Virus record (IMG/VR): IMGVR_UViG_3300007541_000258
Location: 1-22,108 of that record
Strand: one strand, 5' to 3'
Length of the DNA stretch: 22,108 bases
Source: a virus
The notes under the pieces were generated by a model, which made no database searches, had not been told where the DNA came from, and saw only the letters and a program-made list of their open reading frames with translations. Positions within the stretch are counted from its first letter, which is position 1, and each line of letters opens with the position of its first letter. The translations under genes and the position numbers were made by a program. Of this stretch, positions 1,211 to 22,108 are shown piece after piece.

Positions 1211-1228
1211 GTATTTCTTAGCAAAATA

Positions 1229-1276: not shown

Positions 1277-1388
1277 TACGGCTATGTCAGTAAACGTTTA
1301 ATATCAGTAAGTTACAGGACGTCCGCAGCCCCCACAGTCCATAACTGCTCATGACGAATCTGGACCCATCCCCACAAAATCCCCGCAG
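1277..1388. other. Non-coding att flank with candidate integrase arm sites
   Basis: No gene is seen here. The stretch starts with a small inverted repeat at the core edge (TAGCC 1271-1275 with GGCTA 1280-1284). It then has two copies of TCAGTAA (1287-1293 and 1304-1310, 17 bases apart) and a palindrome AAACGTTT (1292-1299). Repeated short motifs beside an attP core are what integrase arm-type or excisionase sites look like, but the motif is short and the assignment is only an inference. The remainder up to the DUF5675 stop shows nothing further. Confidence 0.35.
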
Positions 1389-2778: not shown

Positions 2779-2794
2779 CTGCGTGTGCTCATCG

Positions 2795-4147: not shown

Positions 4148-4150
4148 CGG

Positions 4151-4462: not shown

Positions 4463-4465
4463 GGG

Positions 4466-7933: not shown

Positions 7934-7936
7934 GCC

Positions 7937-8467: not shown

Positions 8468-10362
8468 AGCTCACCCCTCGCAGCGGCTTCTTGGGTTAAT
8501 GCGTCGGCGAGAGAAACGCCATTTGATCCAGTTGTGGATACGTTAACCACCGCCTTGAATTCAAGCGGCGGCAAGCTGTTGATATATTCAACGGCGGCGG
8601 CATAACCGGCGTCGGCCTGCTGTCTGATTTGTTCCGGAGAAAACGCAACATCCATCGGGATTGCGCGGTTCGGGTCTTTCTCTGCAGCATCCTGGATGGC
8701 TTTTTCGGTGTCGCTTTGCGCGGCGGCATTGGCGATGCGCTCGAACTCTTTAGCGAGGCCGGTCATTGCAACCGTTGCGCCGTCGCCTTCCTGCTGCATC
8801 TGCTTGAGCATGGCTACGCCTTCACGGGCCAACTGAACGGCGCGTTCTGTATCGCCTGCATCCAGGGCTTGTTTGGCATCCAGCCGTTGCTTGGATGCGT
8901 CGATGAAGTCAACGTCTTTGCCGTCACCGCCGTTTTTAATCTCGGTCACGGCAGAGCCGAATTCATTGGCTATCGCCGCCTGTTCTTTCTCGGCATCCTT
9001 TACCTGCTTGAGGGCGTCCTGGTAGATTTTGATGCGCTCTTTCAGGGCCTTTGCCAACTCCTTGTTCCCATTCGCGGTTGCCTTAGCGACTTCAGCAGAA
9101 AGGCCACCCTTGCCGGCCTCTGCCTTCGCGTCTCGGGTGGCCTTGCTCACCTTTTCAATTCCGTCTACAGCGTCTTTTGCATCTTCTCCGATAACACCAA
9201 ACGCCTGACCGATGTTATTCACTGCGTCTGCTATATCATCGCCGTCCTCTTCAATGCCGCGCAGGAGTTCGCCGCCATACCGGTCGATGTCCTCTTTCAT
9301 CAGCCTGAATGCCTCTGAAACCTCACCAAAGGTGATTGCCTCCAGCGCGACAACAACTCCACGAATAGCGGTCAGGATGAGGCTTGCACCGATTTTGATC
9401 ATGAGCTGGAGACCGTTCCAAATCAGTCGAATGTGCTCAAATGATGCGGTAATACCCCGTGCAAGCCATGAAATGGCAGCATTAATTTCCTTAGAGCTTT
9501 CCTTTGTGGACCCTGTCATTTTCTCCCAGGATTCAGCGATGTACTGCATAAAGCCCACCCACTGCTCGTTCTGGGTGAACATCTGGCCTAGGGTTTCAAG
9601 GTAATCGCCATGTGCGGCATTTGCCTTTCGGATTGCGCCCTCGTATTCGTTGCCTATAGCTTCAGCCAATCCTCTGAAGTTGCCGTCCAATACTTCGGCG
9701 ACAATCTGCACCTTTCCAAGCTGGTCGGCTGACTCATGCGCGGCCTTCTGGACGTCGTTCATCACAACGCCGTACTCGCCCAGCGAACCAATGCTGCCGG
9801 TAATCGACTTCCCTAACTGGATTGCGATCGACTCTAGATCAACATCAGCGTTGCCTGCCCTTCTTGTGGCCTCTGCCATATCCAGCAGGCGGGGTGTGAG
9901 AATTGCGATCTCCTGGGCCGTAAGCTGGAAGGTGGCCAGCATGGCCTGAGCTGAGATGGTTGTCTCGTCACCGTAGCCGGTGGTCTGCTGCAAGGCGGAT
10001 GCCTGGTCATACAGCGCCTTGATTTCGTCCTCTCGCGCACCGGTGAGGTTGCGAAGGGTAGTGGCCAGCTTTGTCTCTGCGCGTTCCTGAACGGCTGCGG
10101 CCTGGGTCCACTTCGAGATTGCCGCGATACCGCCAGCAACAGCCGCACCGATCAGCAGGATTGCATTTCTCGCTTTGGAAGCGGCGGCACCTATGGCACC
10201 GAACGAACCGGCAGCCTGTTTGTTACTGCGCTCGATCTTCTCGGCTGAGTCGTCGGCGGCCTTTTCGATCTTGCGAAACGACCCCGTGACCTTGCTCACC
10301 TGGCCGGTGAAGCGGTCTTTCAGCTCGTAGGCAATTTCGACTATGCGGTCTTTGACGGACAT
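8464..10362 (-). CDS. Tail tape measure protein
   Basis: Determines tail length and is ejected with the DNA. The 632 residues show the expected layout: a helical N-terminus (YELKDRFTGQVSKVTGSFRK), a first hydrophobic segment (about 66-83), a long alanine/glutamine-rich helical part, a second hydrophobic region (about 316-346) and a charged helical C-terminal part. If tape measure length scales as in other siphophages, the tail would be of ordinary length, shorter than lambda's. The gene begins two bases after the GPZ-like gene stop. No tail assembly chaperone pair precedes it. Confidence 0.88.
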   Translation of the reverse strand: MSVKDRIVEIAYELKDRFTGQVSKVTGSFRKIEKAADDSAEKIERSNKQAAGSFGAIGAAASKARNAILLIGAAVAGGIAAISKWTQAAAVQERAETKLATTLRNLTGAREDEIKALYDQASALQQTTGYGDETTISAQAMLATFQLTAQEIAILTPRLLDMAEATRRAGNADVDLESIAIQLGKSITGSIGSLGEYGVVMNDVQKAAHESADQLGKVQIVAEVLDGNFRGLAEAIGNEYEGAIRKANAAHGDYLETLGQMFTQNEQWVGFMQYIAESWEKMTGSTKESSKEINAAISWLARGITASFEHIRLIWNGLQLMIKIGASLILTAIRGVVVALEAITFGEVSEAFRLMKEDIDRYGGELLRGIEEDGDDIADAVNNIGQAFGVIGEDAKDAVDGIEKVSKATRDAKAEAGKGGLSAEVAKATANGNKELAKALKERIKIYQDALKQVKDAEKEQAAIANEFGSAVTEIKNGGDGKDVDFIDASKQRLDAKQALDAGDTERAVQLAREGVAMLKQMQQEGDGATVAMTGLAKEFERIANAAAQSDTEKAIQDAAEKDPNRAIPMDVAFSPEQIRQQADAGYAAAVEYINSLPPLEFKAVVNVSTTGSNGVSLADALTQEAAARGEL

Positions 10363-10363
10363 A

Positions 10364-10906
10364 TTAGCCTTTGCTCAGTTCGTACTGGATTTCGTGCGCT
10401 AGGGTCTTTTCAAGATCTGGCGCGGTCTGGTTGATGATCTCGGGCAGTTTGTCGCCCATGATCTTGCTAACCGGTGGTCCGTATATCTGCTTGATCGGCA
10501 ACCGGCTGCGACTGGTTCGCCTGAAAACTCCAATGTGTCCGGATGGCATGCGGGCAATGAACGCACCCTTGAACACCATCCGGGGCTTGTCCTTGCGCAT
10601 GCGAACCGTCACGCCCTTTTTGGTCTGTCGCACACCGTTGAACTTGATCAGTGGCACGGGTTTGTATCTGCCCTGAACGGTTGAGCGGTGGTTATCAGGC
10701 GTTGCCCGGGTGACCTTCAGTTGGTCTTTGACCGTCTTGGCTTTCAGGTTCAGGGTTTTTCGAATCACCCGGCTTGATACGTTGCGGCCCTTGGTGGCGG
10801 TTTTGTTCAGTGCCCGGGCACCTGCCCTGCGCAACTTCCGCTGATGGCCCTTGACCTCCTTTTCAAGGGCGCGGGTTGCGGTAGAGATTGCGCTGGGGGC
10901 GATCAC
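10364..10906 (-). CDS. Minor tail protein Z-like (GPZ) protein
   Basis: A 180-residue very basic protein. Residues about 12-60 (LEKEVKGHQRKLRRAGARAL, then NKTATKGRNVSSRVIRKTLN) match the pattern of prophage minor tail protein Z, which in lambda acts late in tail completion. The start is GTG at 10906, eight bases after the tail tube stop, with only a weak upstream AGG. Gene order differs from lambda, where Z precedes the tail tube gene; here it lies between tail tube and tape measure, the place normally held by the tail assembly chaperones. Confidence 0.75.
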   Translation of the reverse strand: MIAPSAISTATRALEKEVKGHQRKLRRAGARALNKTATKGRNVSSRVIRKTLNLKAKTVKDQLKVTRATPDNHRSTVQGRYKPVPLIKFNGVRQTKKGVTVRMRKDKPRMVFKGAFIARMPSGHIGVFRRTSRSRLPIKQIYGPPVSKIMGDKLPEIINQTAPDLEKTLAHEIQYELSKG

Positions 10907-10913
10907 GTCACGT

Positions 10914-11642
10914 TTACGCCTGCTTGATTTCGGCGTACTGAGACAGGCCTGCAGTGGTGATGCTTGTATCTTTCAGCACGTCACCGGTCAGGCTGATTTC
11001 GCCGAACTCGTCACCGATCATTCCCAGGGTCTGGGCCCCGCCGAACTTGGCACGATGCACCTTGATAACAACCGGCGTACCGCTCTGCGCCTCGTTCAGG
11101 CCGTCAAACATCAACACGTATTCCTGGGCTGAACTGGTCAGCGCCTGGATTACATCAACCGCCTTCTTGGTGTAGTCGATAAGCAGTGCATCGCTTGCGC
11201 TGATGCTGCCTGCAGCCAAGATGACGATGCCCGATGCGGTAACGGTGTAGTCCGTGTCTTCGGTGTAGGTGGTGCCCGCCGGGTCACTGGTGACGGTGAC
11301 GGTCTGAGCGGTGTCAATGACGTTTGCGGTGGTAACCAGCGTATCGGCACTGAGGGTTGCCGGTGCGCTGATGCTCTCATCGGTGACCGTGGTTGCAGTC
11401 ACCGCAGAGGTTGAGCCGAACAGGGCAACAGCCAGATTCTCGGGGCTGAAGTCGTGCATTTTCAGACTCATTTCCACGCCGGTGATACGGCGCAGGGAGT
11501 TATACAGACCACCACCGGGACTGGTGAAATCAGGCAGCTCTTTCTTCTCTTCGTTGATGGAGAAGGTCAACTCGGACACGTTGCCAACCGCGCGGCCATT
11601 CAAGAAGACCTTGCCTTTTCCGATGTAACTTTTGTCAGCCAT
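10914..11642 (-). CDS. Major tail (tube) protein
   Basis: A 242-residue protein with the features of a tail tube subunit: N-terminal GKGKVFLNGRAVGNVSELTF, an acidic middle with Thr-rich strands, and a C-terminal part (FGEISLTGDVLKDTSI) typical of tube-forming phage proteins. Residues about 80-150 are an inserted-looking T/S/V/A-rich segment (VTVTSDPAGTTYTEDTDYTV) that could be an exposed beta domain on the tail surface. The ribosome-binding site AAGGAG lies about 9 bases upstream, one of the clearest in the operon and fitting a highly produced protein. Confidence 0.8.
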   Translation of the reverse strand: MADKSYIGKGKVFLNGRAVGNVSELTFSINEEKKELPDFTSPGGGLYNSLRRITGVEMSLKMHDFSPENLAVALFGSTSAVTATTVTDESISAPATLSADTLVTTANVIDTAQTVTVTSDPAGTTYTEDTDYTVTASGIVILAAGSISASDALLIDYTKKAVDVIQALTSSAQEYVLMFDGLNEAQSGTPVVIKVHRAKFGGAQTLGMIGDEFGEISLTGDVLKDTSITTAGLSQYAEIKQA

Positions 11643-11654
11643 TTTCAGGGCTCC

Positions 11655-12116
11655 TTACTGTGTGTCCGGGTTACCGTATTCGCGGACGTGGGGAATGGAA
11701 TAAACAACGCTGACGGAAACCACGTTGCTGTACTCTTCTGGGTATGAAATCTCGTCACCGGCAAAGCTTATGCCGTTGCCGTGCAGCAAGCCATCGAGGT
11801 TCTCGGGGTCGACCTCAACGGCCTTTTGAATGTCGGCCAGCATTTTGATAGCGGTGACTTCTGGGTCGGTGCTGTACTTGTGGTGCGCTTCTACAACCAC
11901 CGACGCATCCAGGCTCTGGCGCGCACCCCCAGACGATTGCTTTTCGACAGTTCTGGGTTGCAGGTAGACGCCACACGACGGAAGAGAATCTGTATCCAAG
12001 ACCGCCCGACCTCGATTCACATCCGCGCCTATATCGGTATGGTGTCCGTTGGCAATGCTGATACCGGCTACCCGGGTGACAATCGCGTCGATGATCTGCT
12101 GGAGCTTGATGGCCAT
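11655..12116 (-). CDS. Tail terminator/completion-like protein
   Basis: A 153-residue protein starting MAIKLQQIIDAIVTRVAGI and ending with VVSVSVVYSIPHVREYGNPD. Size, helix-then-strand layout and position between the head-tail joiner and tail tube suit a gpU-like tail terminator or minor tail protein. The start at 12116 is chosen because the ATG overlaps the previous stop as TGATG; the open frame continues 11 codons upstream inside the neighbour. Family assignment is from context plus weak resemblance. Confidence 0.65.
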   Translation of the reverse strand: MAIKLQQIIDAIVTRVAGISIANGHHTDIGADVNRGRAVLDTDSLPSCGVYLQPRTVEKQSSGGARQSLDASVVVEAHHKYSTDPEVTAIKMLADIQKAVEVDPENLDGLLHGNGISFAGDEISYPEEYSNVVSVSVVYSIPHVREYGNPDTQ

Positions 12117-12436
12117 CAGCTCACCACCTCGCGCACGGTCAGCGCCCACTCAACCTGGTACTTGTCGGTGGCACGTATGACGTTGAAATCGGTACCGTCG
12201 ACGGTCACCGTGTCGCCTTTGGCTGGGTTGGGGTAATCGCTTTTCAACACGTTGAGGATCGTCTGATCCTCTTCCACGGTAACGACAAAACCGTCTGGCA
12301 CCTGTTGCGCCTCGGTTTCACGCATCACTTTGAGGTCGAATGCGTCGCCCACACCCGGGGTGCAGGTGGCATCAGCACCAAGTCGCGCATAGATGGCGGA
12401 CGATGCCCTTTGTTTGAGTGCGAGAAAGCCGGTCAC
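12116..12436 (-). CDS. Head-tail joining protein, FII-like
   Basis: A 106-residue protein with GTG start. The segment YPNPAKGDTVTVDGTDFNVI (about 68-87) followed by WALTVREV is the typical ending of lambda FII-like and other head-tail connector proteins, which cap the portal neck and join the tail. It is directly followed, with TGATG overlap, by the tail completion-like gene, the order expected for a neck module. Confidence 0.7.
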   Translation of the reverse strand: MTGFLALKQRASSAIYARLGADATCTPGVGDAFDLKVMRETEAQQVPDGFVVTVEEDQTILNVLKSDYPNPAKGDTVTVDGTDFNVIRATDKYQVEWALTVREVVS

Positions 12437-12439
12437 CGA

Positions 12440-12832
12440 TCAGCCCTCGTAAACCCTGTCGGCCATAACAGCCACTGAGGTGATCAGTTTGGTGAGCACC
12501 ATTTTTACGCTGGGGTCTGCGGTTACGTTGGCATCAACCCAGGCTGCATGTTCTGCTGGGGTCATGGAACGAATAGCAACAATGAGCGGGTCAACGGCCA
12601 CCTGGTCGCTGATGCCTTCTTTTGCTTCAGATTCTTGCTGCTTTGAGATGACGTGGGCCAGGTAGTCAACCTCTTTGGCGTCAACCTGTGCCGCCGTGGG
12701 AGGCGTGATTCCGTCAGCCCATTCAACCTGGGTATCCAGGTAAGCCTGCAGGTCGTCGCCATCATTGAACGCACTGAGCGCACGAAGCATGAAGCCGGGC
12801 CAACCGAAATTGATAATCGCGGTAACGTTCAT
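12440..12832 (-). CDS. Unrecognised 130-aa protein of the head/neck region
   Basis: A 130-residue acidic, mostly helical protein (MNVTAIINFGWPGFMLRALS near the start, then QVEWADGITPPTAAQVDAKEVDYL, then PAEHAAWVDANVT). No membrane segment or catalytic motif is seen. It starts four bases after the 173-aa gene and ends two bases before the FII-like start. Position suggests a virion or assembly protein of the head/neck; I do not recognise a family. Confidence 0.6.
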   Translation of the reverse strand: MNVTAIINFGWPGFMLRALSAFNDGDDLQAYLDTQVEWADGITPPTAAQVDAKEVDYLAHVISKQQESEAKEGISDQVAVDPLIVAIRSMTPAEHAAWVDANVTADPSVKMVLTKLITSVAVMADRVYEG

Positions 12833-12835
12833 GGG

Positions 12836-13357
12836 TTAGCCTCCGGTGCAGTCGGTGATTGCCAGTGAAATATCCGTTGGAATAACAGTGCCTTTTAGTA
12901 CACCTCCAGAATCACCTTCCACCTCCCACACCACAAGAGAAACGGTTTGAGTGCCAGATGGGAGAGAATCCTGTGAAATCATGTAGGCGATGTTTGCACC
13001 GGAGGACAATGCACTTTTATATGCATCCTTAAAAGTGCCGCTTGCTGCTATCTCACCCACCCTCAGCGAATACTCTACTCCGTTGGATGTATAGGAAAGT
13101 GGATAAACTGTGGAGCCAATCTTTAACCCAAGTCGCGCCTGAATCGATCCGGCCGAAGCAGTTGCATCTACTCGGCTCTCTTCACTCATGACGTGAATAG
13201 CTCCAACAGTGGGGATATTCATCGAAACCGACTGGCCGATCTGCGCAGCACCGGCCTGGGTGGTTGGCAGTGAAATATCGGTGCTATCGGTAAAGCGGTG
13301 GATGATGGTGTTACCACCACCGCCGCCTGACACCGGTGGAAATATCAGGTCGCTCAT
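12836..13357 (-). CDS. Unrecognised 173-aa beta-rich virion protein
   Basis: The 173 residues begin with MSDLIFPPVSGGGGGNTI, a glycine linker, then a Ser/Thr/Gly/Val-rich domain ending SLVVWEVEGDSGG. This looks like a short anchor plus an exposed beta domain, as in head fibres or decoration proteins. Its ATG overlaps the stop of the 80-aa gene (TAATG). The gene stands out from its neighbours by lower GC and different codon use (more A and T in third positions), a hint of later acquisition. Confidence 0.6.
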   Translation of the reverse strand: MSDLIFPPVSGGGGGNTIIHRFTDSTDISLPTTQAGAAQIGQSVSMNIPTVGAIHVMSEESRVDATASAGSIQARLGLKIGSTVYPLSYTSNGVEYSLRVGEIAASGTFKDAYKSALSSGANIAYMISQDSLPSGTQTVSLVVWEVEGDSGGVLKGTVIPTDISLAITDCTGG

Positions 13358-13599
13358 TACACTACCCCCGTGGTGACAACCTTGGCGCTACCTGAGTCCG
13401 CCCTTGCATAGACGTTTTCTGAGCCGCTGTAGCTGACATTTTCTCCGCGTGATTTAGGGTGATAATCGTCCGTGCTGTCTGCAGGCGCAGATGCACCGAT
13501 ATGAATCCGCACTCCATTTCCGCCACGTACCTCTACAACGCATGCGCCGGCATTGAGCAGGGTGTAACTTTCAGTCAGGGTTGTGGTTGTGGTCGCCAT
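13357..13599 (-). CDS. Small 80-aa virion-like protein
   Basis: An 80-residue protein with a Thr-rich start (MATTTTTLTESYTLLNAGAC) and a core VEVRGGNGVRIHIGASAP, a pattern seen in small phage proteins that form a single beta-sandwich. GGAG lies about 6 bases before the ATG, and the stop overlaps the 173-aa gene. The two could act as a pair, for example as a surface fibre or decoration. Function not known. Confidence 0.6.
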   Translation of the reverse strand: MATTTTTLTESYTLLNAGACVVEVRGGNGVRIHIGASAPADSTDDYHPKSRGENVSYSGSENVYARADSGSAKVVTTGVV

Positions 13600-13611
13600 G
13601 GTGTCTCCGCG

Positions 13612-13878
13612 TTATTGCTCACTGCGTTTGTTTTCAAATACGGGTCTATAAAAATCCTTTTGGAACTGCTCAAGCTGACGCTCGACCTTGTGAAGGTCTG
13701 CTCTCAAATCCTTGACCTGTTCCGAAAGCACTTTCTGTGCTGCGTACATAACAACACTTGCCGTGACGCCTGCGATGATGAAAGCCTCGATCATTCTGGC
13801 TACTGATAAACGGTTGCTCTGACCAGTTACCAGCAAGAACGGAATGACTTGCGCCCAATCGATCTGTTTCCACGGCAT
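13612..13878 (-). CDS. Membrane-anchored coiled-coil protein in head module
   Basis: An 88-residue protein with one clear transmembrane segment (about 29-50, MIEAFIIAGVTASVVMYAAQ) followed by a charged helix with heptad character (about 51-78, SEQVKDLRADLHKVERQLEQ). Single-TM-plus-coiled-coil proteins of this size include holin-associated and superinfection-related phage proteins, but none is normally placed between decoration protein and neck genes. The frame is open to 13974, overlapping the DUF2190 gene. I prefer ATG at 13878 (MPWKQIDWAQ); ATG at 13899 directly follows a hairpin and has no ribosome-binding site. Neither start has a strong one. Confidence 0.6.
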   Translation of the reverse strand: MPWKQIDWAQVIPFLLVTGQSNRLSVARMIEAFIIAGVTASVVMYAAQKVLSEQVKDLRADLHKVERQLEQFQKDFYRPVFENKRSEQ

Positions 13879-13905
13879 TGTTTTTATTCCAGTGATCATT
13901 TTTTT

Positions 13906-13927
13906 AAGGGGCGCTATTGCGCCCCTT
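13906..13927. other. 9-bp hairpin after capsid/decoration genes
   Basis: A perfect stem AAGGGGCGC (13906-13914) with GCGCCCCTT (13919-13927) and a four-base loop lies between the DUF2190 stop and the next start. In the operon's direction it is followed only by TT and then A's, so it is not a good Rho-independent terminator. It could instead stabilise the 3' end of the abundant capsid message or attenuate downstream genes. On the + strand it is followed by TTG after the stem. Confidence 0.6.
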
Positions 13928-13937
13928 TTGCCTTGGG

Positions 13938-14324
13938 TTATGCGGTCAGGGTTGCAGGCTGGCCAGTCAGCCAAACGTTGCAGGTGGTTTCGAGGTTTGC
14001 GCCGTCCGCATCAGCACGGCACGAACCGGAAACGTCACCAGTTGCGGCAGTCGCCTGGTTGTCATCGAAGGCACTGGCGCTTGCGTCCCAGATCAGGGAC
14101 TCGCCTGCGGTGAATACGGCGGCAGATACCTTTGCGGCAGTTACGCCACAGTTGACGCCGACAGAGCCGCTTGCACCGTCTGCGATGTCGACCAGGGCAA
14201 CGGCTAGGGTGGCATCACCCAACGCGCCCATCACAACAATGTCTCCAGCAGATACCGCACCACCGGTGCCGTTGGTCCACTGGCGGGTCTCCATGTGGTT
14301 GGAGTTGTAAATATTGGTAGCCAT
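13938..14324 (-). CDS. DUF2190 capsid decoration/cement protein
   Basis: A 128-residue protein with the DUF2190 pattern: N-terminal TRQWTNGTGGAVSAGDIVVMG, then a repeated SVGVNCGVTAAKVSAAVFTAGESLIWD, and Ala/Thr-rich ending. Members sit next to the major capsid gene and are considered head decoration or cement proteins. A GAGGAAC ribosome-binding site lies about 8 bases before the ATG. It directly follows the protease-capsid fusion gene. Confidence 0.85.
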   Translation of the reverse strand: MATNIYNSNHMETRQWTNGTGGAVSAGDIVVMGALGDATLAVALVDIADGASGSVGVNCGVTAAKVSAAVFTAGESLIWDASASAFDDNQATAATGDVSGSCRADADGANLETTCNVWLTGQPATLTA

Positions 14325-14377
14325 TTATTTGTTCCTCTTTAGCCTGCCGGGCGGTTTATGCCGCCCGGCTTATGGGT

Positions 14378-16474
14378 TTATGCGCCTGCGTTGCGAACAG
14401 CGCCCGCGTAACCGACACCGGAAACACCGAAGTCAAGGCGGGCCTTGTACTGGGTGCCGTCAACGCTCCAGCCGTCCTGCATGTCGAGGAAGGGTTCCTG
14501 CTCACCGTCAAGGAACGAGACCTCAAGCACGGGGGCTTCATCAGGGCTGGCAAATACAAACCAGGGGTTGCCCGTCAGACGAGGTGTGCCGACCAGATCA
14601 GAGAAGTAGTTCTGATAGGGGTTAGGCACGTTGTCGTTCTTGCTCTTGGCGGGTGCGTCGGGGTCGTTGGTGGAGGCGTTGAGAACACGCGCAGTCAACT
14701 CAAGCGATTTTGGTCCAAGCCAGATGGCTGGCGTCAGGTCCAGATAGTCGTTGCCGTTGATGTCCTTCTGTCCGGCCATGGCCAGCACACAGGATTCAAC
14801 CGTCGCAACGGATGGGCCGCCTGCCGTTGCGGCAATGTTGCCGTGGTCTGCATGGAACAGGCTCTTGCCGTCGCTCAGGGTTGGACCCATGCCGCTGTTG
14901 AGCGCCAAGGTGCTGTAGACGGTTGATTCGATGGTGCGCCGTGCGGCACGACCCAGGGCGGACGCGAGTCCAACAAAAGCGCCCAGGTCATCGTTGATGA
15001 TGGCCTGACGGCTGATGTTGATCAGGTTGCCCTTGGTGCCAATGGAAACGGTCTCTTTGCTACCGTCGCCGATCTGCTTGTTCTGGAACTCACCCAGCTC
15101 AGTGAGATCATCCAGATTACCCAAGCTGCCGATCATGTAGCGGTTGTGAGCGCGGAAGTCGGATACAGACCCGACAGCACAAAACCGACTCCAGGTATCG
15201 GCGGCAGTGCGGTAGCCGGAGAGCAGCGCCTTGTGCATCGCGTTTTCCAGCAGCACGGGGAAATCACTGGTGCTCTGCGTAAAGGCGGCGGCCACAACCT
15301 CCATTTTGGTTTTGCCTCTGGTGTCATACCCGCCACTGGCCAGGCACTCACGAGCGAGGTCCATCAGCGACATTCCGCGGTAAGGGTTGCCAGCCATCTG
15401 AATGGCCTTGCCCTCTTCGCTCTTGATCTTGGCGCGAGCCAGGATGATGTTGCCTGCGGCTTCAATGCGCTTGTCACGCTCATCGGTAACCACATCAACA
15501 CGAACACCACCGGCGGCAGCCAGGGGCTCGTGCTGTTTACCGATGACATCCAGGATTTTTTCGCGTGCTGCGTCAACGGTGATTTCAGGATCAGCCAGGA
15601 TCTGATCCTTCAACTCACTCATGCCATTAACCTGCATGTGCGGGGTGATGATGGCGAGTACTTCGGTATTGCGCGCTTTGATAGCCTCGACCTGTCTGGC
15701 ATTGGCAGCGGCTTCGATTTCGGTGACGTTCACCGGCTTTTCTTCGGCGGTCGGTTCAGCGCCCGCCTTGGGGGTCTTCTTCTCAGGCATTGTTTTATCC
15801 TTTCGAGAGGTTGGAAGAGTAGCGGCGGGCATTGCCGCCAGGGTTGGAGATTTGAAATTACGGAAATCAATCCCGTCTGCGCAGGCTGCGATATCAACGG
15901 AATCGGTGGTGTCGTCGATGAGTCCGAGATCAAGGGCTTCTGATGCGGTGAAATAGTGGTCATCGCCATCTTTCAGCCAGCCCTCAATGTCGGCCTTGTC
16001 TGGACCGCCGTCACGGATATAGGCGTTGGTCATGGCGTCTGCGTATTTATCGAGGATGTCGGCCTGCTTGCGCATCTGCTGCGCATTGCCTGACGCCCAA
16101 GACATAGGCGCATGAATCATCAAAAGGCCGTTGTCTGCCATGATGACAGTCTCTCCGGCCATAGCGATGAGAGACGCAGCGGAGTAGGCCACAGCATCAA
16201 TCTCAACAGTTACAGCGCCGCTATGTCTGCGCAGCGCGTTGAAAATGGCAATGCCGTCTGCAACAGATCCGCCAACCGAGTTGATACGAACTGTGAGATC
16301 CTTGCCATCTACATCCTTCAGCTCTGCAATCAGCTGCTTTGCGGTAACGGATTCGTCATCCCAGTAGGATGGGCCGATGTTGCCGTAGATCAGAAGTTCT
16401 GCGCTGTCGTCGCCTGCGGCTTTGACTTCGTACCACGGCTTGGGTGTTGATTTGTCTTTCTTCGGCATGGTCAT
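14378..16474 (-). CDS. ClpP-type prohead protease fused to major capsid protein
   Basis: A 698-residue fusion. Residues about 14-205 form a ClpP-like serine protease with visible catalytic S98 (VAYSAASLIAMAG), H121 (LLMIHAP) and a probable aspartate at D171/D172 (DDHYFTASEALDLGLID). Residues about 229-345 are a charged, helical linker resembling a scaffold. Residues about 350-698 form the major capsid part (LLENAMHKALLSGYRTAADT, SLFHADHGNIAAT, GTPRLTGNPWFVFASPDEAP). Such protease/scaffold/capsid fusions are known in this phage group; the protease would process the precursor during head maturation. The start overlaps the portal stop (ATGA). A second, internal start is possible at 15790. Confidence 0.9.
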   Translation of the reverse strand: MTMPKKDKSTPKPWYEVKAAGDDSAELLIYGNIGPSYWDDESVTAKQLIAELKDVDGKDLTVRINSVGGSVADGIAIFNALRRHSGAVTVEIDAVAYSAASLIAMAGETVIMADNGLLMIHAPMSWASGNAQQMRKQADILDKYADAMTNAYIRDGGPDKADIEGWLKDGDDHYFTASEALDLGLIDDTTDSVDIAACADGIDFRNFKSPTLAAMPAATLPTSRKDKTMPEKKTPKAGAEPTAEEKPVNVTEIEAAANARQVEAIKARNTEVLAIITPHMQVNGMSELKDQILADPEITVDAAREKILDVIGKQHEPLAAAGGVRVDVVTDERDKRIEAAGNIILARAKIKSEEGKAIQMAGNPYRGMSLMDLARECLASGGYDTRGKTKMEVVAAAFTQSTSDFPVLLENAMHKALLSGYRTAADTWSRFCAVGSVSDFRAHNRYMIGSLGNLDDLTELGEFQNKQIGDGSKETVSIGTKGNLINISRQAIINDDLGAFVGLASALGRAARRTIESTVYSTLALNSGMGPTLSDGKSLFHADHGNIAATAGGPSVATVESCVLAMAGQKDINGNDYLDLTPAIWLGPKSLELTARVLNASTNDPDAPAKSKNDNVPNPYQNYFSDLVGTPRLTGNPWFVFASPDEAPVLEVSFLDGEQEPFLDMQDGWSVDGTQYKARLDFGVSGVGYAGAVRNAGA
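15788..15806 (-). promoter_or_regulatory. Internal ribosome-binding site and in-frame start in the protease-capsid gene
   Basis: On the minus strand GAAAGGATAAAACAATG presents an AGGA 7 bases before an in-frame ATG at 15790 (MPEKKTPKAGAEP). Translation from here would give a 470-residue product lacking the protease but keeping scaffold-like and capsid parts, similar in logic to lambda C/Nu3. The site lies at the predicted junction between protease and linker, which supports its use. Confidence 0.55.
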
Positions 16475-17946
16475 TCTTTCTCGCTGGTGATTAATTCCCA
16501 GCCGCGAGCTTGCGCGGTTGGTTTTGAGATGGTGTCTTCACTGTCGAAAGCGTCTTCCTTCATCTGCTTCCAGCGGCGCTGCTGGTCTGCGACATCACGC
16601 GGATTCATGCCACGCCGACGTATGATTTCGATGCCGCTGGCATGGCCGTTTTCTTCGAGATTGCCCCAGGCAACAGACTCTTTGACTGGATCAATCCACG
16701 GCATTTGAGGTGGCATGTAGAACGCATCACCAATGGTCAGTGGGTCTACGTCTGACGGGATGATCAGATCACCAGAGAGCAATGCCATTTCGAGGAATTT
16801 GTGATAGGTCGGCCTGACGAATTGGCCGATAAATTCAGAAGCCAGCACACCATACGCGCCATAACCCTCAACAAGCTCTTGCCGCTGTGCTGAATAGGTT
16901 CCGTTGTAGTCTTTTGAGAGGCTTGAGTAGGTCAGGTAACTGGATGAAGCCCAGGCCCGCAGCTGCCCGTTGCGGTAGGCTTCCAGGTTTACGTTCGGGC
17001 GCGAGGTGTCGATGGTGCCAATCTCTTCACCGGCCACCAAATCATCGAAAACCATGCCCGGGCTAAACCGTAAATCACGCGCTTCCGGTTCGCCGTCGCC
17101 ATCTAGATCGGTGTCATACAGATCCGAGCTTCCTTTTTTGATGTATGCCGCCATGCTTGCCGCAACCTTGGCGGCTATGCGTTCGCTCTCTTCGTAGTCT
17201 TTGATGTCGTCAATCCGCAGCATTGAAGCGGCGAATATTGATACGCCTCTGGTCTGCCCAATACGGTCAATCAGTTTGACGTGCAGCATGCGGTCGGCAC
17301 TGACGCGCTTTGTCTCTGCCGCAACTGAGTAGAGCCTGAAGTCTCCGGGGTGCTGCTTGTAGATATGGTAGGCAACCGGCTTACCCCACCCATTGAGTTC
17401 AACCCCCTGGACGATGCGAGGGTCACCTGCCTTGTTGAGGCCAAGCGGAAGCTGGTCTGCCTCGATCAGTTCGAGTGAAAATGGAACGCGGGTTCCGTGG
17501 TCAAGGCTTGGGAGTGTGCCGCTGATGGTCTGCGCCAGGCCTTCACCGTCTCTAAGCCAAGTGCGCCCCATCAACCGTTGAGCTGCCGGCCAGTCATGCT
17601 GGTGCGTGACTTCAGGACGCAATGACCAATCCATATAGGACGCATGAATTCTCTTTGCAAAGTCATCGTGGATGGATCCATCCGGCCTGCGCGGCTGTGG
17701 CTCTACCTGAATGCCGTTTGGTCCAATGACGTTCTGCACCAGGGTGTTGAGCGCCCCTTTAGCCAGGTCGTGATTTTGGTCGAGGTGGCGGGCCTGTTCT
17801 CTGATTGAAGTCCCGGCGCGTTGTACGGCGGTATCGGCAGAACCAGTCTCTCGGCGCTGTTTCTGGTAGCCGGTGCGCTTTCCGGCCTCGTAGTACATCT
17901 TGACTGGTACTCCGCCTCGCCAATGCACAACACGCCGTCTATTCAT
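16471..17946 (-). CDS. Portal protein, lambda family
   Basis: Forms the dodecameric head vertex through which DNA enters and leaves. The 491 residues match the lambda-family portal pattern: GTSIREQARHLDQNHDLAKG, LNTLVQNVIGPNGIQVEPQP, then LMGRTWLRDGEGLAQTI, FSLELIEADQLP, VAYHIYKQHP, ADRMLHVKLIDRIGQTRGVS and YSSLSKDYNGTYSAQRQELV. The ATG at 17946 overlaps the gpW-like gene end (GATGAATAG); a TTG five codons upstream is possible. Its stop overlaps the start of the protease-capsid gene. Confidence 0.93.
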   Translation of the reverse strand: MNRRRVVHWRGGVPVKMYYEAGKRTGYQKQRRETGSADTAVQRAGTSIREQARHLDQNHDLAKGALNTLVQNVIGPNGIQVEPQPRRPDGSIHDDFAKRIHASYMDWSLRPEVTHQHDWPAAQRLMGRTWLRDGEGLAQTISGTLPSLDHGTRVPFSLELIEADQLPLGLNKAGDPRIVQGVELNGWGKPVAYHIYKQHPGDFRLYSVAAETKRVSADRMLHVKLIDRIGQTRGVSIFAASMLRIDDIKDYEESERIAAKVAASMAAYIKKGSSDLYDTDLDGDGEPEARDLRFSPGMVFDDLVAGEEIGTIDTSRPNVNLEAYRNGQLRAWASSSYLTYSSLSKDYNGTYSAQRQELVEGYGAYGVLASEFIGQFVRPTYHKFLEMALLSGDLIIPSDVDPLTIGDAFYMPPQMPWIDPVKESVAWGNLEENGHASGIEIIRRRGMNPRDVADQQRRWKQMKEDAFDSEDTISKPTAQARGWELITSEKE

Positions 17947-18142
17947 CGGCAAATCTCGCAATACGGTGACGGGGTGAAAGTCGGGGCTTGGCGGCGTACA
18001 ACTCCGCCTCGATTTGATTTTGTATACGGATTAGCTCGTCCAGCGAACGGTAGGTGATCTGGCGATCACCAAAACGCACAGACAATTCGCCAGCGGCTAT
18101 TGCTGATTTAATACTGTCGAGGTCTTGTTGAGTGTACGCCAT
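17939..18142 (-). CDS. gpW-like head-tail joining protein
   Basis: A 67-residue protein MAYTQQDLDSIKSAIAAGEL followed by SVRFGDRQITYRSLDELIRI, the compact helix-strand-strand-helix pattern of lambda gpW, which binds the portal after DNA packaging. In lambda the order terminase-W-portal is the same. An ATG four codons upstream (18154) is the alternative start; neither has a clear ribosome-binding site. It is the first head gene after the accessory insert. Confidence 0.8.
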   Translation of the reverse strand: MAYTQQDLDSIKSAIAAGELSVRFGDRQITYRSLDELIRIQNQIEAELYAAKPRLSPRHRIARFADE

Positions 18143-18204
18143 GCTGGGAAGCATGGACGCACAACGACGGGCATTTTAGGGAAAGAGTGTCGGGGTTTAG
18201 GCGG
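18143..18204. other. Left flank of the cassette region
   Basis: Short non-coding stretch between the gpW-like start and the DUF551 stop. It ends with GGCGG, whose last G (18204) precedes the TTAAGT that opens the first cassette. I looked for another attC here and found no convincing hairpin, so this looks like the recipient side of a G^TT insertion point. Confidence 0.4.
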
Positions 18205-18387
18205 TTAAGTTGCAGGCGGCTCAGGAAGCGTCATCCAGTGAGTGAAATAGTCTTCATCAACAAAGGTGCCTGCATAGCTCCACATATGCCCAGAAAACCA
18301 AGTAACTTCCATCTCCCCGTCTCTTGAAAACCCGAGCACAAAATCTTTCTCGCCGGGCATCTGCTCAGTACATTTAATCCACTGCAT
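18205..18387 (-). CDS. DUF551 family protein (cassette 1 gene)
   Basis: A 60-residue protein with the DUF551 hallmark: MQWIKCTEQMPGEKDFVLGF at the start and THWMTLPEPP at the end. DUF551 proteins are common in phages and have no established function. GGAG lies about 7 bases before the ATG; an upstream in-frame ATG (18408) would run into attC A and is less likely. The TAA stop is formed exactly by the first bases of the cassette after the G^TT junction. The gene would be co-transcribed with the late operon. Confidence 0.75.
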   Translation of the reverse strand: MQWIKCTEQMPGEKDFVLGFSRDGEMEVTWFSGHMWSYAGTFVDEDYFTHWMTLPEPPAT

Positions 18388-18412
18388 AGCTTTTCTCCGT
18401 GAAAACACTGCA

Positions 18413-18498
18413 ACTTAACAAGTGGCTCTGGCCACTCGTCACTTTGTTCCTAGCTGGGACGGTCGCTTCGCTCCCGCCCCTAAGCATTGGCGTTATGA
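18413..18498 (+). repeat. attC: attC-like site A
   Basis: Starts with ACTTAAC (18413-18419, a perfect RYYYAAC R'' box) followed by AAG, and ends with GGC before GTTATGA (18492-18498, R' box). The middle contains an inverted repeat AGTGGC/GCCACT and a GC-rich segment. R'' and R' pair imperfectly in place, but R'' pairs perfectly with the start of the same cassette at 18204. The 86-bp length fits attC sites. Internal folding is less regular than in site B, so the call depends on the boxes, spacing and boundaries. It is not a terminator, as no T-run follows in the minus direction. Confidence 0.5.
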
Positions 18499-18657
18499 GG
18501 CGCTGGCCTTTTCTACAGCTTCTGAAACCTTGCCTAACAGCGTTTCCAGTTGTGGTGATTTCCATCCTTCTCCCATAGGCCCGCAATCACAATAATCTTG
18601 CAACACATCAACCAGCTGATCGGCCTCTTGGTCTGTTAAATCCAATATGATTTTCAC
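18493..18657 (-). CDS. 54-aa small acidic protein (cassette 2 gene)
   Basis: The 54 residues start with GTG: VKIILDLTDQEADQLVDVLQ, then DYCDCGPMGEGWKSPQLETL. The EAxxLxxxLxxYxDCGPxGEGWxSPxL pattern resembles small phage proteins of unknown function. GGAG lies 9 bases before the GTG; the open frame extends upstream to 18708 but that part crosses attC B and is probably not translated. The TAA stop coincides with the G^TT junction of attC A. Function unknown; two-helix fold with a polar hairpin is likely. Confidence 0.6.
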   Translation of the reverse strand: MKIILDLTDQEADQLVDVLQDYCDCGPMGEGWKSPQLETLLGKVSEAVEKASAS

Positions 18658-18685
18658 TGTTCTGTACTCCGTAGGTGGTCGCACC

Positions 18686-18753
18686 ATATAACAAGTGCGT
18701 AGAGTCACTGCGTTCGGTCTGGCTACGCCAGCCGCTCACCTCAAGCGTTAGCT
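18686..18753 (+). repeat. attC: attC-like site B
   Basis: A 68-bp element: ATATAAC (18686-18692, R''-like) followed by AAG, and CCGCTCACCTCAAGC before GTTAGCT (18747-18753, R'). The right end CTCAAGCGTTAG equals that of well-known attC sites such as aadA-type cassettes. An apical stem CTGGC-TAC-GCCAG is extended by CGG/CCG with one extrahelical T. A lower GAGT/A(C)CTC pairing leaves one extrahelical C, and TAAC pairs with GTTA in the R boxes. Unpaired bases and an imperfect palindrome are typical of attC. This is the stronger of the two sites. Confidence 0.65.
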
Positions 18754-19002
18754 TTCAACAGCAGCCGCTTGGCGCTCGCATTCGTAGATGAATGAATCCA
18801 CCAATATCGAATCGTTAGACACGTTTTTGATCTCCGCGCTTGTGTATGCGCGACAGAAACCGTACGTCTCTGCGCAGTACCAATGCGCCTCAATAATCAG
18901 GCCGTCACGGTTCCCGGGTCGGATAACAATATCGGCATTTGTGCCGAGTATTGGCGGGCACTGCGATTTTAGTTTTTCAATCAATTCAAGGGTGTTTTTC
19001 AT
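18748..19002 (-). CDS. Unrecognised 84-aa protein next to the cassettes
   Basis: The 84 residues start MKNTLELIEKLKSQCPPILG and contain an aromatic/cysteine-rich centre EAHWYCAETYGFCRAYTSAE. No family was recognised. The ATG at 19002 is preferred because GGTGATG precedes it; the frame is open to 19071 inside the Mor-like gene. It starts 13 bases after the Mor-like stop, with no attC between, so it may be an original phage gene. Its TAA lies exactly at the right G^TT junction (18747/18748), which suggests that the cassettes entered at its stop codon without damaging it. Confidence 0.6.
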   Translation of the reverse strand: MKNTLELIEKLKSQCPPILGTNADIVIRPGNRDGLIIEAHWYCAETYGFCRAYTSAEIKNVSNDSILVDSFIYECERQAAAVES

Positions 19003-19015
19003 TTCATCACCAATG

Positions 19016-19363
19016 CTACAAATTCCACTCACTCGAACCAAAGCCGGTATGCCTGCGGGTCTGCTTTGCAAGATAATCAGAAATCACACGGTCAACAGTT
19101 CGTCTGTCTACGTCGTGGTGCATGGCTATTTCCCCCCTCGGGGCTTTGCCCTTCCACATTGCAATAATACTCCTGTTGCGCTCTCTCCGCCGCTCCTTGC
19201 TGATCTGACGGATATAGTGACGATCTCCACCAAACCTGCCCCGAACATCCTCCTCGACGTTCTGAGCGATAGAGCGCGCCAATTCTGCATCTATCCCGGC
19301 GTCGGATAATGCACTGTTCAAGCAGGTACAAACGAACTCGGCGAGATCGTCGTACTCTGTCAT
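19016..19363 (-). CDS. Mor/C-family-like transcriptional regulator
   Basis: A 115-residue basic protein resembling the Mor activator family of Mu-like phages: helical N-terminus (LAEFVCTCLNSALSDAGI, dimerisation), then FGGDRHYIRQ (about 44-53) and a C-terminal helix-turn-helix (about 75-97, RGEIAMHHDVDRRTVDRVIS). Mor activates middle transcription in Mu. Here the gene sits between large terminase and head genes, with ATGA overlap to the terminase, so it could regulate late or other phage promoters. Its last residues (GFGSSEW) repeat the terminase C-terminal motif. Similarity is moderate; a general HTH regulator is the alternative. Confidence 0.65.
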   Translation of the reverse strand: MTEYDDLAEFVCTCLNSALSDAGIDAELARSIAQNVEEDVRGRFGGDRHYIRQISKERRRERNRSIIAMWKGKAPRGEIAMHHDVDRRTVDRVISDYLAKQTRRHTGFGSSEWNL

Positions 19364-21420
19364 AGGCGACTGCTCCAGTCATCCGAACCAAAGCCCCGCT
19401 TGTTCATCTGCTTCTTAACTTGCTTTTTCGTGGTGGATTCTGCGCCTGATACGTGAGAGTTCCTATCCCACACCGCCGCCCACTTCGGAGGCGTTTTCCA
19501 ATCTATTTTCTCGACGCCAAGATAAAGGTTCAGTGCCTTGCCGTAGTAAAGCAAATCCCCTGTCTCGTTTCTCTCGCTGCCAATGTTTTTCCAGCCGGTT
19601 GATGTTCTTGTCTCGGCAACGATTTCAGCGAAGTACTTCTCTTCCAGCCATGATGGAAGGTGAACAAAACCTGGACCCTCTTCTTTGCGCGTCAGATCGT
19701 TGTTGAGCGCGTCCTTGAGTTCGTTCGTGTTCAGAATCAACATCGGCACATCTCCACGCGCCCCGGAGTGCCGGTCTTTGCGCTTTGATGAGTCTGGGTA
19801 TGTTTCTCTCACTCGTGGGATTTTAGCGTTTGGTCTGTCACCCTCGCCCTTTATCAGCCGTACATTTCGGTTCTTGCCGCTGCGCCTGAGAGAGCGCCAC
19901 CAGTTCAGAGCCCTGGTGGTAACGCCCTTTTTACCTCCGGAGTCAACGCCAACGAAATGAACCGCCATTCTGCGGCCTGAATCATCACCCAGGGGGTACT
20001 CTTTGCCGATCAGTGCATTGAGTACAGTCCAGTCTTCCTGGTGGCCTGGTGGGTCGAGCGGCTCTTTCTCGCCTGCTGCAGTCACTCTATCTGACCAGTG
20101 AAGCGCGAACCGATCAACAATCCAGGATTCCTGTTCGATACCGTAGCCAGTGACCAGCACCTCGAATCGATTTCCCTGAACGTCGACTTTCGCCAACAGA
20201 TAACGAACGCCCTCCGGAACGGTCCCCCTGGTCCACTCAATAGCGCGGCTGATCAGCTCGTCTGCCGTCCTGGTGCTCTTCCGACTGATTGGCAGATACG
20301 GTGACCCCTGGTCAACGTTAACGGTGGTTTTCAGCGCCTTCTCTGAACCGGTGCGCTCATACTCAGCCTTAGCCTGGAGGTATTTCAGGACAATGGATTC
20401 CCATGTTTGAAAACGCGCGTTTGGTCCGTGCAACCAGAATGAGGCAATGGAAGAGCCGTATGCCTCGCCGGTGATTATTCCGCCCTTGCTTATTTTCAGG
20501 CCGTCTCTTACCCATGCGCCGTTCGCGTCCATCTCCGTTTTGTGCTCAGGCCCAATCTGGCATCCGCAGGATGGGCACACAATCTGAACCTGTGCGGCGG
20601 CTTCCTGGATGTTGTCTATCTCCGGATACCAGAGGCGGTCGAACGTAGGGATGAAATACTCATCACATTCAATGCACGGCCAGTAACGGCGGCGACGGTC
20701 TCCGCGGTTGAAGAGCGACATTATCCCGGGAGCCGGTGGCCCTTCGTGTGATGTCGTTGGGGTCCACTTCGGGTTAATGATCTCCTTCTTCGGTGAACTC
20801 TCCGCCATGCACATTCCGGCGGACATGAAGGTCTGAACACGCTTCAGCGCCAAAGCAAATGGTTCGCCTTCCCCGTCTACGTCCTCTGGCATAGAGTCGT
20901 AATCTGACAGCACCACATAGCGCATATCACGCTGGGCCATTCGGGAAGACGTCGGCCACAGCAGATCAACCAGCATCCCGTTTCTGAATGTTTTGCTGAA
21001 TAGGTTGTCATCGTGGGAGCGTGGCGAGATCATCGCGCGTATCTCATCACTCGCCTTGTTCAGCCTGTTGAGACGGCGTTTCGAGTAGTCCTTTGCGTTG
21101 CCCTCTACCGGGAAATAGAGACCCATATCACCCGGATCACACATCACCGCATAGCCATACCACCCATCAACCAGGCTCTGTGTCTTCGATGAACGGGCAG
21201 GCCCAACAAACACAACCGCCTCATATTCTCTGGCGGCGAGGGTGTCCATCGGCTCAACCATGTAAGGAGTCAGATCCGGATCGTAGGGGCCTTGGTACCC
21301 ACCAGGGGCGTTAACCGTCACATACCTGGACGCGGCCTCACTGACCCGCATCCGGACAGGGGCCTTCACTGCCTTGACGGCATCACTTCTGATTTCGGCA
21401 TAGGTTCCGTATGAGATCAT
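19360..21420 (-). CDS. Terminase large subunit, GpA family
   Basis: ATP-driven DNA packaging motor and nuclease. The 686 residues show a Walker A-like GPARSSKT (about 74-81), a Walker B-like RYVVLSDYD (about 168-176), a zinc-binding pair CIEC (250-253) and CPSC (283-286), and a nuclease half beginning around VRYLLAKVDVQGNRFEVLVT with an acidic D. These are hallmarks of GpA-type terminases, which cut at cos sites in lambda. The ATG at 21420 overlaps the stop of the small subunit (TGATG); a TTG one codon before is possible. The C-terminus GFGSDDW may dock on the portal, by analogy with lambda gpA whose C-terminus binds the prohead. Confidence 0.95.
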   Translation of the reverse strand: MISYGTYAEIRSDAVKAVKAPVRMRVSEAASRYVTVNAPGGYQGPYDPDLTPYMVEPMDTLAAREYEAVVFVGPARSSKTQSLVDGWYGYAVMCDPGDMGLYFPVEGNAKDYSKRRLNRLNKASDEIRAMISPRSHDDNLFSKTFRNGMLVDLLWPTSSRMAQRDMRYVVLSDYDSMPEDVDGEGEPFALALKRVQTFMSAGMCMAESSPKKEIINPKWTPTTSHEGPPAPGIMSLFNRGDRRRRYWPCIECDEYFIPTFDRLWYPEIDNIQEAAAQVQIVCPSCGCQIGPEHKTEMDANGAWVRDGLKISKGGIITGEAYGSSIASFWLHGPNARFQTWESIVLKYLQAKAEYERTGSEKALKTTVNVDQGSPYLPISRKSTRTADELISRAIEWTRGTVPEGVRYLLAKVDVQGNRFEVLVTGYGIEQESWIVDRFALHWSDRVTAAGEKEPLDPPGHQEDWTVLNALIGKEYPLGDDSGRRMAVHFVGVDSGGKKGVTTRALNWWRSLRRSGKNRNVRLIKGEGDRPNAKIPRVRETYPDSSKRKDRHSGARGDVPMLILNTNELKDALNNDLTRKEEGPGFVHLPSWLEEKYFAEIVAETRTSTGWKNIGSERNETGDLLYYGKALNLYLGVEKIDWKTPPKWAAVWDRNSHVSGAESTTKKQVKKQMNKRGFGSDDWSSRL

Positions 21421-21899
21421 CAAGCCGCCACCACCTTCGAGGCCTCAGACAGCTTCGAGTAGGCCTCGTCTCTAAATGCGTCAATCGATGCAATTACCCG
21501 TGCGGTCGCATGCGGCTGAATGCCGGCATCTCTTTCGAGCACATCCGGAAGCGTCTCCAAAAGAGAGACCATCGACTTCACCAGTTCAGCCGTCCCGCGC
21601 TCGACCTCTTCTGCGGGGATAAGCTGCCTCCTGGAAACCATCAGCTCATCCCTGGCCTGTTCTGCGCGATAGTATTTGAGACGCTCGTTTGGCGTCATTT
21701 TGTCTACAGGTAGCTGCTCTTCAGGCTCCTTTTCCTGGGCTCTCAAATAGCGAATATAGCCCTGAACAGATCCAACCAATGGATATTTCCCCCTGGAGGA
21801 TTTAGGTATATATCCAAGTTTCGCTAACTGCTGTATCCGGCGCGGGGATATCTCCAGCAGTTTCGAAATCACCTCTGTAGATAAAAGTTCAGAAGACAT
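21420..21899 (-). CDS. Terminase small subunit, Nu1-like
   Basis: DNA-recognition subunit of the packaging complex. The 159 residues start with a winged helix-turn-helix (STEVISKLLEISPRRIQQLA, then KLGYIPKSSRGKYPLVGSVQ) followed by a helical, charged part that would bind the large subunit (NERLKYYRAEQARDELMVSR). This is the layout of Nu1-type small terminases. AAGG lies 7 bases before the ATG. It is the first gene of the leftward late operon. Confidence 0.88.
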   Translation of the reverse strand: MSSELLSTEVISKLLEISPRRIQQLAKLGYIPKSSRGKYPLVGSVQGYIRYLRAQEKEPEEQLPVDKMTPNERLKYYRAEQARDELMVSRRQLIPAEEVERGTAELVKSMVSLLETLPDVLERDAGIQPHATARVIASIDAFRDEAYSKLSEASKVVAA

Positions 21900-21990
21900 A
21901 AAAAAAGCCTTGCTTTATAGCCCCCGTGGGGCTAGTATTAACTACAAGGGAAGGGCATGAGGCTCGGCCCAAACAACCAGGAGAATCCTG
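21900..21990. promoter_or_regulatory. Divergent control region with palindromic operator and candidate promoters
   Basis: The only open space between the leftward late operon and the rightward gene. A perfect palindrome AGCCCC-CGT-GGGGCT (21919-21933) overlaps a candidate + promoter, TTGCTT (21910-21915), 17-base spacer, TAGTAT (21933-21938). On the minus strand a TATAAA (21914-21919) next to the palindrome could be the -10 of the late operon, but no good -35 is seen. A regulator bound at the palindrome would affect both directions. Because the Nu1 gene follows, the packaging site cos could also lie here or just beyond. Confidence 0.5.
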
Positions 21991-22108
21991 ATGACTACCA
22001 TCCAAATCAAAAAATCCGAACTCATTAGCGAACTCACCAATTCCCTGCAATATGCAGGCTCCACCGAATGGGACCTCTACGTTCACGTCAATGGGGCACT
22101 GGATACGC
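21991..22108 (+). CDS. Unidentified + strand gene, 5' part only
   Basis: An open frame of 39 codons running off the window: MTTIQIKKSELISELTNSLQ and onward, polar and helical, ending in YVHVNGALDT at the edge. AGGAG is placed 7 bases before the ATG, and the candidate promoter at 21910-21938 points to it, so it is a real gene start. It is divergent from the late operon and may open the early or accessory block of the phage. Function cannot be judged. Confidence 0.65.
   Translation, partial: MTTIQIKKSELISELTNSLQYAGSTEWDLYVHVNGALDT

Follow-up and report, generated by a model that had tools for sequence, protein, structure and literature searches.

Integrons have mainly been studied as bacterial devices. 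Integrons or parts of integrons have been reported in 21 phages, and five of six phage attC sites that were tested recombined with attI1; the same work describes two virulent phages whose cassettes all point in one direction and have the typical bacterial structure (Qi 2023, PMC9892861). The phages of that work (PMC9892861) share with the virus described here cassettes bounded by attC, in some cases accompanied by the integron integrase IntI, and methyltransferase cargo; as a point of difference, the IntI of the present virus falls among viral IntI. The cassette genes of Shewanella phage M16-3, Vibrio phage Va_90-11-286_p16 (Va_p16), and Tetrasphaera phage TJE1 are parallel to attC (14 parallel, none antiparallel, and six unclear), whereas those of the present virus are antiparallel. 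The sedentary chromosomal integrons of Gammaproteobacteria resemble the present system in their IntI family, their attC boxes, the orientation of attC away from intI, and the pairing of a cassette start with its own R'' box. However, most bacterial cassette genes point away from intI (112:13), whereas those of the present virus read towards intI, behind a phage operon. Phage morons are accessory genes placed between the genes of operons. The present cassettes, like morons, are small co-directional accessory genes located between structural genes; they are bounded by site-specific recombination sites, whereas morons are bounded by random junctions. The bioreactor virus Rctr41k (KX853513) has an IntI-like gene annotated as xerD (L420 4680-5678), which is co-directional with the genes upstream of it, and no convincing attC was found in 13.6 kb of this virus (best score 20.2 with the attC scorer described below, and one Infernal match of 19.1 bits). 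The preliminary description of the locus considered its arrangement not commonly described. This is right in part: phage integrons and CALINs as such are published (PMC9892861), but cassettes with inverted genes and an IntI lineage belonging to phages were not found described in the open-access literature searched.

The stretch of DNA analysed here, called the window, is the entire IMG/VR record IMGVR_UViG_3300007541_000258 of 22,108 bp and belongs to a tailed phage. The late operon of the phage is encoded on the minus strand and includes, in order, the small terminase, a lambda-type TerL, a Mor-like activator, the genes for an 84-residue, a 71-residue, and a DUF551 protein, gpW, the portal, and a ClpP-capsid fusion. 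The features to which the text refers are the following.

11-1189, plus strand: ordinary phage tyrosine integrase (PF00589)
16471-17961, minus strand: lambda-type portal (PF05136, E 4e-90), used as the query for relatives
17939-18142, minus strand: gpW-like head-tail adaptor, downstream neighbour of the insert (phrog_2545, 9.8e-23)
18205-18492, plus strand (attC orientation): cassette 1, which runs from G^TTAAGTTGCAG (18204/18205) to the site A crossover and has a start that matches its own R''
18205-18408, minus strand: DUF551 ORF of cassette 1, likely ATG near 18387 (PF04448, 2.3e-11; phrog_924)
18416-18495, plus strand: attC site A, R'' TTAACAAG ... GGCGTTA R' (score 23.6; Infernal hit 18410-18499)
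18493-18747, plus strand (attC orientation): cassette 2, with junctions at 18492 and 18747
18493-18708, minus strand: 71-residue ORF of cassette 2, probable GTG start near 18657, with the TAA stop forming the junction TTA
18689-18750, plus strand: attC site B, R'' TATAACAAG ... AAGCGTTA R' (score 27.6; Infernal hit 18683-18754)
18748-19002, minus strand: 84-residue gene without its own attC, with a TAAC stop that is the right-hand junction
19016-19363, minus strand: Mor-like activator, the late-operon gene that lies next upstream of the insert (PF08765, 2e-7)

The preliminary description had recognized two attC-like sites and G^TT junctions in this segment, and both sites and the junctions were located. 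The start of cassette 1 (18204) is the exact complement of its own R'' over 12 nt, which reproduces the match noted previously, and the start of cassette 2 matches its own R'' over only 5 nt. The stops of the DUF551 ORF (18205), the 71-residue ORF (18493), and the 84-residue gene (18748) each coincide exactly with a junction TTA, in agreement with the earlier claim of stop codons at the junctions. The acceptor at the stop of the 84-residue gene is G^TTA on the antisense strand. The attC sites are on the plus strand and all three genes are on the minus strand; therefore, the genes are inverted relative to attC, a point absent from the preliminary description. In the usual, although not universal, form of a cassette, the gene is parallel to attC and the attC is at its 3' end, and this form is found neither in the window nor in the array described below. 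An assignment in which the genes are read from the minus strand with an attC downstream of each was rejected, because it would leave the DUF551 gene without an attC and because both attC models score the plus strand.

The sites were evaluated with two independent models. The first is a scorer that combines position weights of both arms with stem complementarity and was trained on 66 attC, chosen for clean stems, that remained after seven of 73 candidates had been removed by eye. The candidates came from 40 IntI-flanking stretches in genomes of one bacterial class, some of which contributed none. When applied to both strands of the window, the scorer ranks site B (27.6) and site A (23.6) first, both on the plus strand, followed by a score of 15.2 on the minus strand. 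Both sites are below the range of 28.8 to 58.1 obtained for the training attC by leave-one-array-out scoring. In 100 shuffles that preserve the dinucleotides of the window, the top score of a shuffle has a median of 17.3, a 95th percentile of 25.3, and a maximum of 29.8, and eight hits in total reach at least 23.6; therefore, site A alone is not significant. Judging from the shuffle counts, chance should rarely place a pair of such sites on one strand at a distance of about 200 bp. The preliminary description had proposed a check with an attC covariance model, and an Infernal model built from 29 bacterial attC ranks the same two sites first, with site B at 23.0 bits (E 2.8e-4) and site A at 15.9 bits (E 0.023, marginal alone), ahead of a third match of 10.9 bits (E 0.5). 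The attC of M16-3, Va_p16, and TJE1 listed at E <= 0.5 with the same model score 15.3 to 39.7 bits, which places site A at the low edge of published phage sites. Folding of both strands, also proposed in the preliminary description, was carried out and is unimpressive for either site: the stand-alone z values on the plus and minus strands are -0.8 and -2.4 for site A and -2.1 and -0.8 for site B, with poor separation from shuffles. A search of the window with Rfam returned nothing at gathering score and two sub-threshold, chance-like matches at E <= 10. The carrier of a published functional attC, P12002L, was matched by neither the scorer nor Infernal; therefore, the sensitivity of attC detection is incomplete. 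The attC-like identity of sites A and B is confirmed, and the placement of integron-type cassettes inside a phage late operon is supported by both attC models and by the junctions. There is a high likelihood that the window cassettes are real.

The window record itself encodes no integron integrase. The profile TIGR02249 was searched in 32 virus records with attC-like hits, of which five matched at E <= 0.001 and one exceeded the cut-off. This record, IMGVR_UViG_3300025655_000105 (G371), has a length of 38,265 bp and is the contig behind locus L002, one of the close relatives described below. The earlier comparison of the cassettes to a CALIN-like island therefore applies to the 22-kb record, which has no IntI, but not to the longer contig. 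The window is 100% identical to G371 throughout (bases 1-10847 and 10474-22108). The IntI of G371 (L290 6463-7449) is full-length with 328 residues and ends about 0.7 kb before base 1 of the window. It matches TIGR02249 over positions 1-314 (E 1.3e-116, 383.3 bits, cut-off 265) and is 43-51% identical to 30 bacterial IntI. The catalytic residues R135, K160, H266, R269, H292, and Y301 are conserved. The intI gene and its array are directly upstream of the phage tyrosine integrase (L290 8150-9343 in the longer contig), beyond the window. intI and the window virus are joined on one assembled contig only.

Four attC-like sites are located beside the intI of G371, all antiparallel to intI and to the cassette genes: the sites read away from intI and the genes read towards it. 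The scores of the sites are 36.3, 33.1, 24.9, and 20.8, and the same sites reach 23.3, 20.9, 13.6 (E 0.42), and 25.8 bits with Infernal; two of the four are inside the range of the window shuffles, and the site nearest to intI is weak by Infernal. Matches between cassette starts and R'' extend over 13, 13, 9, and 8 nt. The array encodes RtcB, a protein of 103 residues, and proteins similar to Lar and to DUF2188 (the latter below the Pfam cut-off). At the array junctions, four of the five preceding genes stop exactly at TTA, and the Lar-like gene stops about 8 nt short. A canonical Pc would drive expression away from intI and so could not serve the cassette genes, which read towards it. A G^TTATGAGGCGGG junction is located at L290 6414, 48 bp before the start of intI, where an attI would be expected. 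The junction at window position 18492, where cassette 2 starts, and the intI-proximal junction at L290 6414 have an identical stretch of 11 nt, GTTATGAGGCG, in register. The genes upstream of intI encode a lambda-exonuclease-family protein, a 313-residue protein, and CsrA, after which the array follows. The 313-residue protein resembles RecT from its sequence and has no NCBIfam match. The CsrA homologue (L290 2797-2982) is in the early operon next to recombination genes.

Relatives of the IntI of G371 occur in other viral contigs. A search of viral contigs with an alignment of nine IntI retrieved 132 relatives, and the 80 best matches were analysed. Among these 80, all 79 records besides G371 exceed the TIGR02249 cut-off (40/40 and 39/39), compared with none of 14 control genomes. 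Among annotated phage records, only nine of 50,697 match the IntI of the window virus at E <= 1e-30. An attC scoring at least 27 is present in the flanks of 49 of the best 80 viral IntI loci, and 148 of 150 attC in viral IntI loci are oriented to intI in the bacterial manner. It was considered that the strand of attC might have been miscalled, and this was rejected because of the retained orientation; it is the genes that differ. Hallmark genes were detected in 24 of 42 tested IntI/attC records (the lambda-type portal in 15 and the phrog_2 terminase in nine others), with the reservation that the same portal and terminase families also match 3 and 11 of the 14 control genomes.

Two trees were calculated without the short sequences L366 and L370 and with identical rows removed. 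In the first (78 viral and 30 bacterial rows), the label changes between viral and bacterial four times, compared with 25.8 in shuffles; in the second, calculated with FastTree (63 viral rows and 77 bacterial rows, kept from 79), it changes seven times, compared with 46. The IntI of G371 is among viral IntI in both trees. In the larger tree it belongs to a virus-only branch of 33 (support 89), which is a long branch with a program warning, and a second virus-only branch of 19 (support 99) nests among bacteria. Most of the viral IntI are in virus-only branches, which may reflect sampling, because the bacterial rows come from one phylum. L312, L328, L334, and L354 are single viral IntI amid bacteria. 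In L312 and L354 (records G414 and G423), intI extends to the last bases of the contig and clusters with bacterial IntI; these may be host integrons at prophage edges instead of phage integrons.

The orientation of cassette genes was called from ORFs that lie between consecutive attC and are preceded by an RBS-like motif, and the counts are given as canonical:inverted:unclear. Bacterial arrays have 112:13:38. The counts are 1:10:5 for viral IntI of the G371 branch (near-copies included), 10:22:22 for the nested viral branch, 0:5:1 for small viral branches, 6:5:5 for viral IntI amid bacteria, and 6:36:8 for viral contigs without an IntI over the cut-off. The same method gave the 14:0:6 of the three published phages. 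Calls by ORF length result in 150:9:4 for bacterial arrays, 46:38:16 for all viral IntI loci (11:0 of which come from L312), and 11:39:3 for viral contigs without IntI; a first, noisy count of canonical and inverted genes gave 150:7, 44:55, and 10:44, respectively. The three methods agree in direction, with the exception that all viral IntI loci taken together lean canonical by ORF length (46:38). Inverted ORFs of at least 60 residues that end exactly at a junction were counted separately, with L312 dropped and repeated attC merged. They occur at 7 of 203 bacterial sites versus 23 of 700 other GTTA, at 39 of 72 sites in viral contigs without IntI versus 31 of 400, and at 31 of 125 sites in viral IntI loci versus 58 of 272. 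In viral IntI loci, the exact stop is not a specific feature, because other GTTA have such ORFs about as often. Only for the contigs lacking IntI and, by inspection, for the window phage is the stop at the crossover a specific feature.

The search with the portal yielded 80 viral loci, among which L001-L003 are nearly identical to the window (100%, 100%, and 99.9% of DNA) and contain the insert. Eight other lineages have both a Mor-like gene and gpW (L004, L005/L006, L007, L021, L031, L032, L035, and L062). The Mor and gpW matches are 40-65 bp apart, without the insert, in seven of the eight, and the gap in L031 is longer, about 230 bp. Relatives of the 84-residue, 71-residue, and DUF551 proteins were not found in the related lineages at E <= 1e-3. 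Locus L024 has other genes between Mor and gpW. The preliminary description had looked to an empty site in related phages as decisive. At the level of genes such sites exist, since Mor is followed directly by gpW in seven of eight lineages, but the exact GGCGG|TTAGC join was not seen; the related lineages, which lack the 84-residue gene as well, have diverged too far for it. A search for an empty site in the same species found none. L025 and L026 were considered as a pair of empty and filled sites and rejected, since the stretch in which they differ holds a methyltransferase-like gene, which indicates mosaicism. The two are 98.4% identical over 3.8 kb; where they differ (L025 1-716 and L026 upstream of 3683), the methyltransferase-like gene replaces the cassette stretch, and L026 has the beginning of the following gene twice.

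The recurrence of attC near gpW and the portal was scanned in 180 loci (174 viral and 6 from genomes; 1.76 Mb including duplicates, with flanks of 6-7 kb at most). Strong attC, with scores of at least 30, are located upstream of the portal and within about 2.3 kb of gpW in L055/L164, L026/L184, L210, L239, and L237, and are antiparallel to gpW and the portal in all of these except L237. The cassettes of L055 directly precede gpW, and their starts match R'' over 9 and 10 nt. In L258, L265, and L282, which were found by the attC pattern alone, the attC likewise precede a lambda-type portal, to which they are antiparallel. Locus L237 (3137-3196) is a provirus contig, the name of which suggests an isolate genome, and has one attC upstream of gpW with canonical gene orientation.

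The window segments are probably gene-inverted integron cassettes that have entered the late operon at a TAAC stop, in a phage that has its own integron. In the proposed mechanism, the IntI of the phage, or that of a host, would recombine the folded bottom strands of attC, and the cassette would enter the stop codon of a gene at its antisense G^TTA. The acceptor gene would stay intact, with TAA kept at the crossover, and the insertion would add one complete gene that is co-directional with the phage operon. Because the cassette gene would read with the phage operon, no integron promoter would be needed. The cassettes of the main array are positioned behind the phage recombination genes and are read towards intI. 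Those of the window would form an outlying part of the phage integron in the late operon, presumably placed there by the phage's IntI.

It is unlikely that a host integron donated both cassettes by means of a host IntI and that the phage is only their carrier, as the preliminary description had proposed. Donation by a host is made conceivable by the ability of IntI1 to use phage attC (PMC9892861) and by the frequency of the integrase, with IntI matches at E <= 1e-70 in 139 of the 369 genomes sampled from one bacterial class (that of G001). The integrons of M16-3 and Va_p16, with their canonical genes, look like captured bacterial ones, and DUF551 genes occur on plasmids (266 records, mostly from E. 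coli); however, DUF551 genes are also present in phages (174 records) and in PHROG families. For the 71-residue protein, which matches no family, no relative was found in bacterial genome contigs or plasmids, and in viral contigs it was found only in near-identical copies of the window virus; a nucleotide search of plasmids with the cassettes gave only short matches (E 2-7). Host donation is not the best reading, since the window virus has its own IntI and array on G371, and inverted genes are common in viral arrays but a minority in bacterial ones (13 of 125 called).

The reading of the palindromes as common phage terminators or degenerated inverted repeats whose likeness to attC is fortuitous, with the genes inherited vertically, is very improbable. 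The score of site A within the shuffle range, the weak folding, and the silence of Rfam at gathering score are in keeping with it. However, the two models rank sites A and B first on the same strand, cassette 1 has the 12-nt match of its start to R'', the genes are missing in related lineages, and strong attC precede gpW or the portal in relatives (46.8 bits in L055 and 55.6 bits in L258 by Infernal). That G371 is a metagenomic chimera of a phage and a bacterial integron is extremely improbable, because, although a single contig spans the junction between phage and intI and the window record stops 0.7 kb short of intI, all 22,108 bases of the window are identical in G371, the array genes are inverted, partly phage-like, and unlike those of bacterial arrays, the IntI groups with viral IntI in both trees, and 79 further viral records have an IntI over the cut-off, with a portal or terminase hallmark in 24 of 42 tested.

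The virus of the window has its own integron, and its cassettes, like many of the viral ones scored, are gene-inverted. Some phages thus appear to run their own gene-shuffling system. The balance tips slightly towards a phage-native class of integrons, in which old virus-specific IntI lineages would have their own pool of inverted accessory-gene cassettes, inserted antisense at TAAC stops, so that any phage operon could act as both acceptor and promoter; in lambda-type phages, the preferred region would be that before gpW and the portal. If this is true, phages would have a means of trading accessory and counter-defence genes with one another rapidly and at specific sites, with the inverted cassettes read from phage promoters, and a TAAC stop flush with an antisense attC would be a rule for recognizing such cassettes. 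Phages would also be a new place to seek the origins of integrons and their cassettes, since both IntI and attC may move from phages to bacteria or back.

The cargo was analysed in 75 cassette-type genes, 73 selected for an inverted ORF of at least 60 residues that ends at a viral attC junction and two from the window virus. Only thirteen Pfam families match any of them: three N6/N4 and two C5 DNA methylases and two Lar were found, together with single matches to RtcB, DUF551, DUF5131, DUF3850, an HNH nuclease, exonucleases, and others. Methyltransferases and Lar are among the first 25 of 56 PHROG families as well. The cargo resembles phage accessory genes and, as a reasonable guess rather than a result, counter-defence genes. 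In L026 (3370-3484) and L210 (464-580), the ORF of the next gene appears to start inside the attC hairpin, so that the arms would be translated, and GGSAL-type stretches are similar in the reading frames of the two attC.
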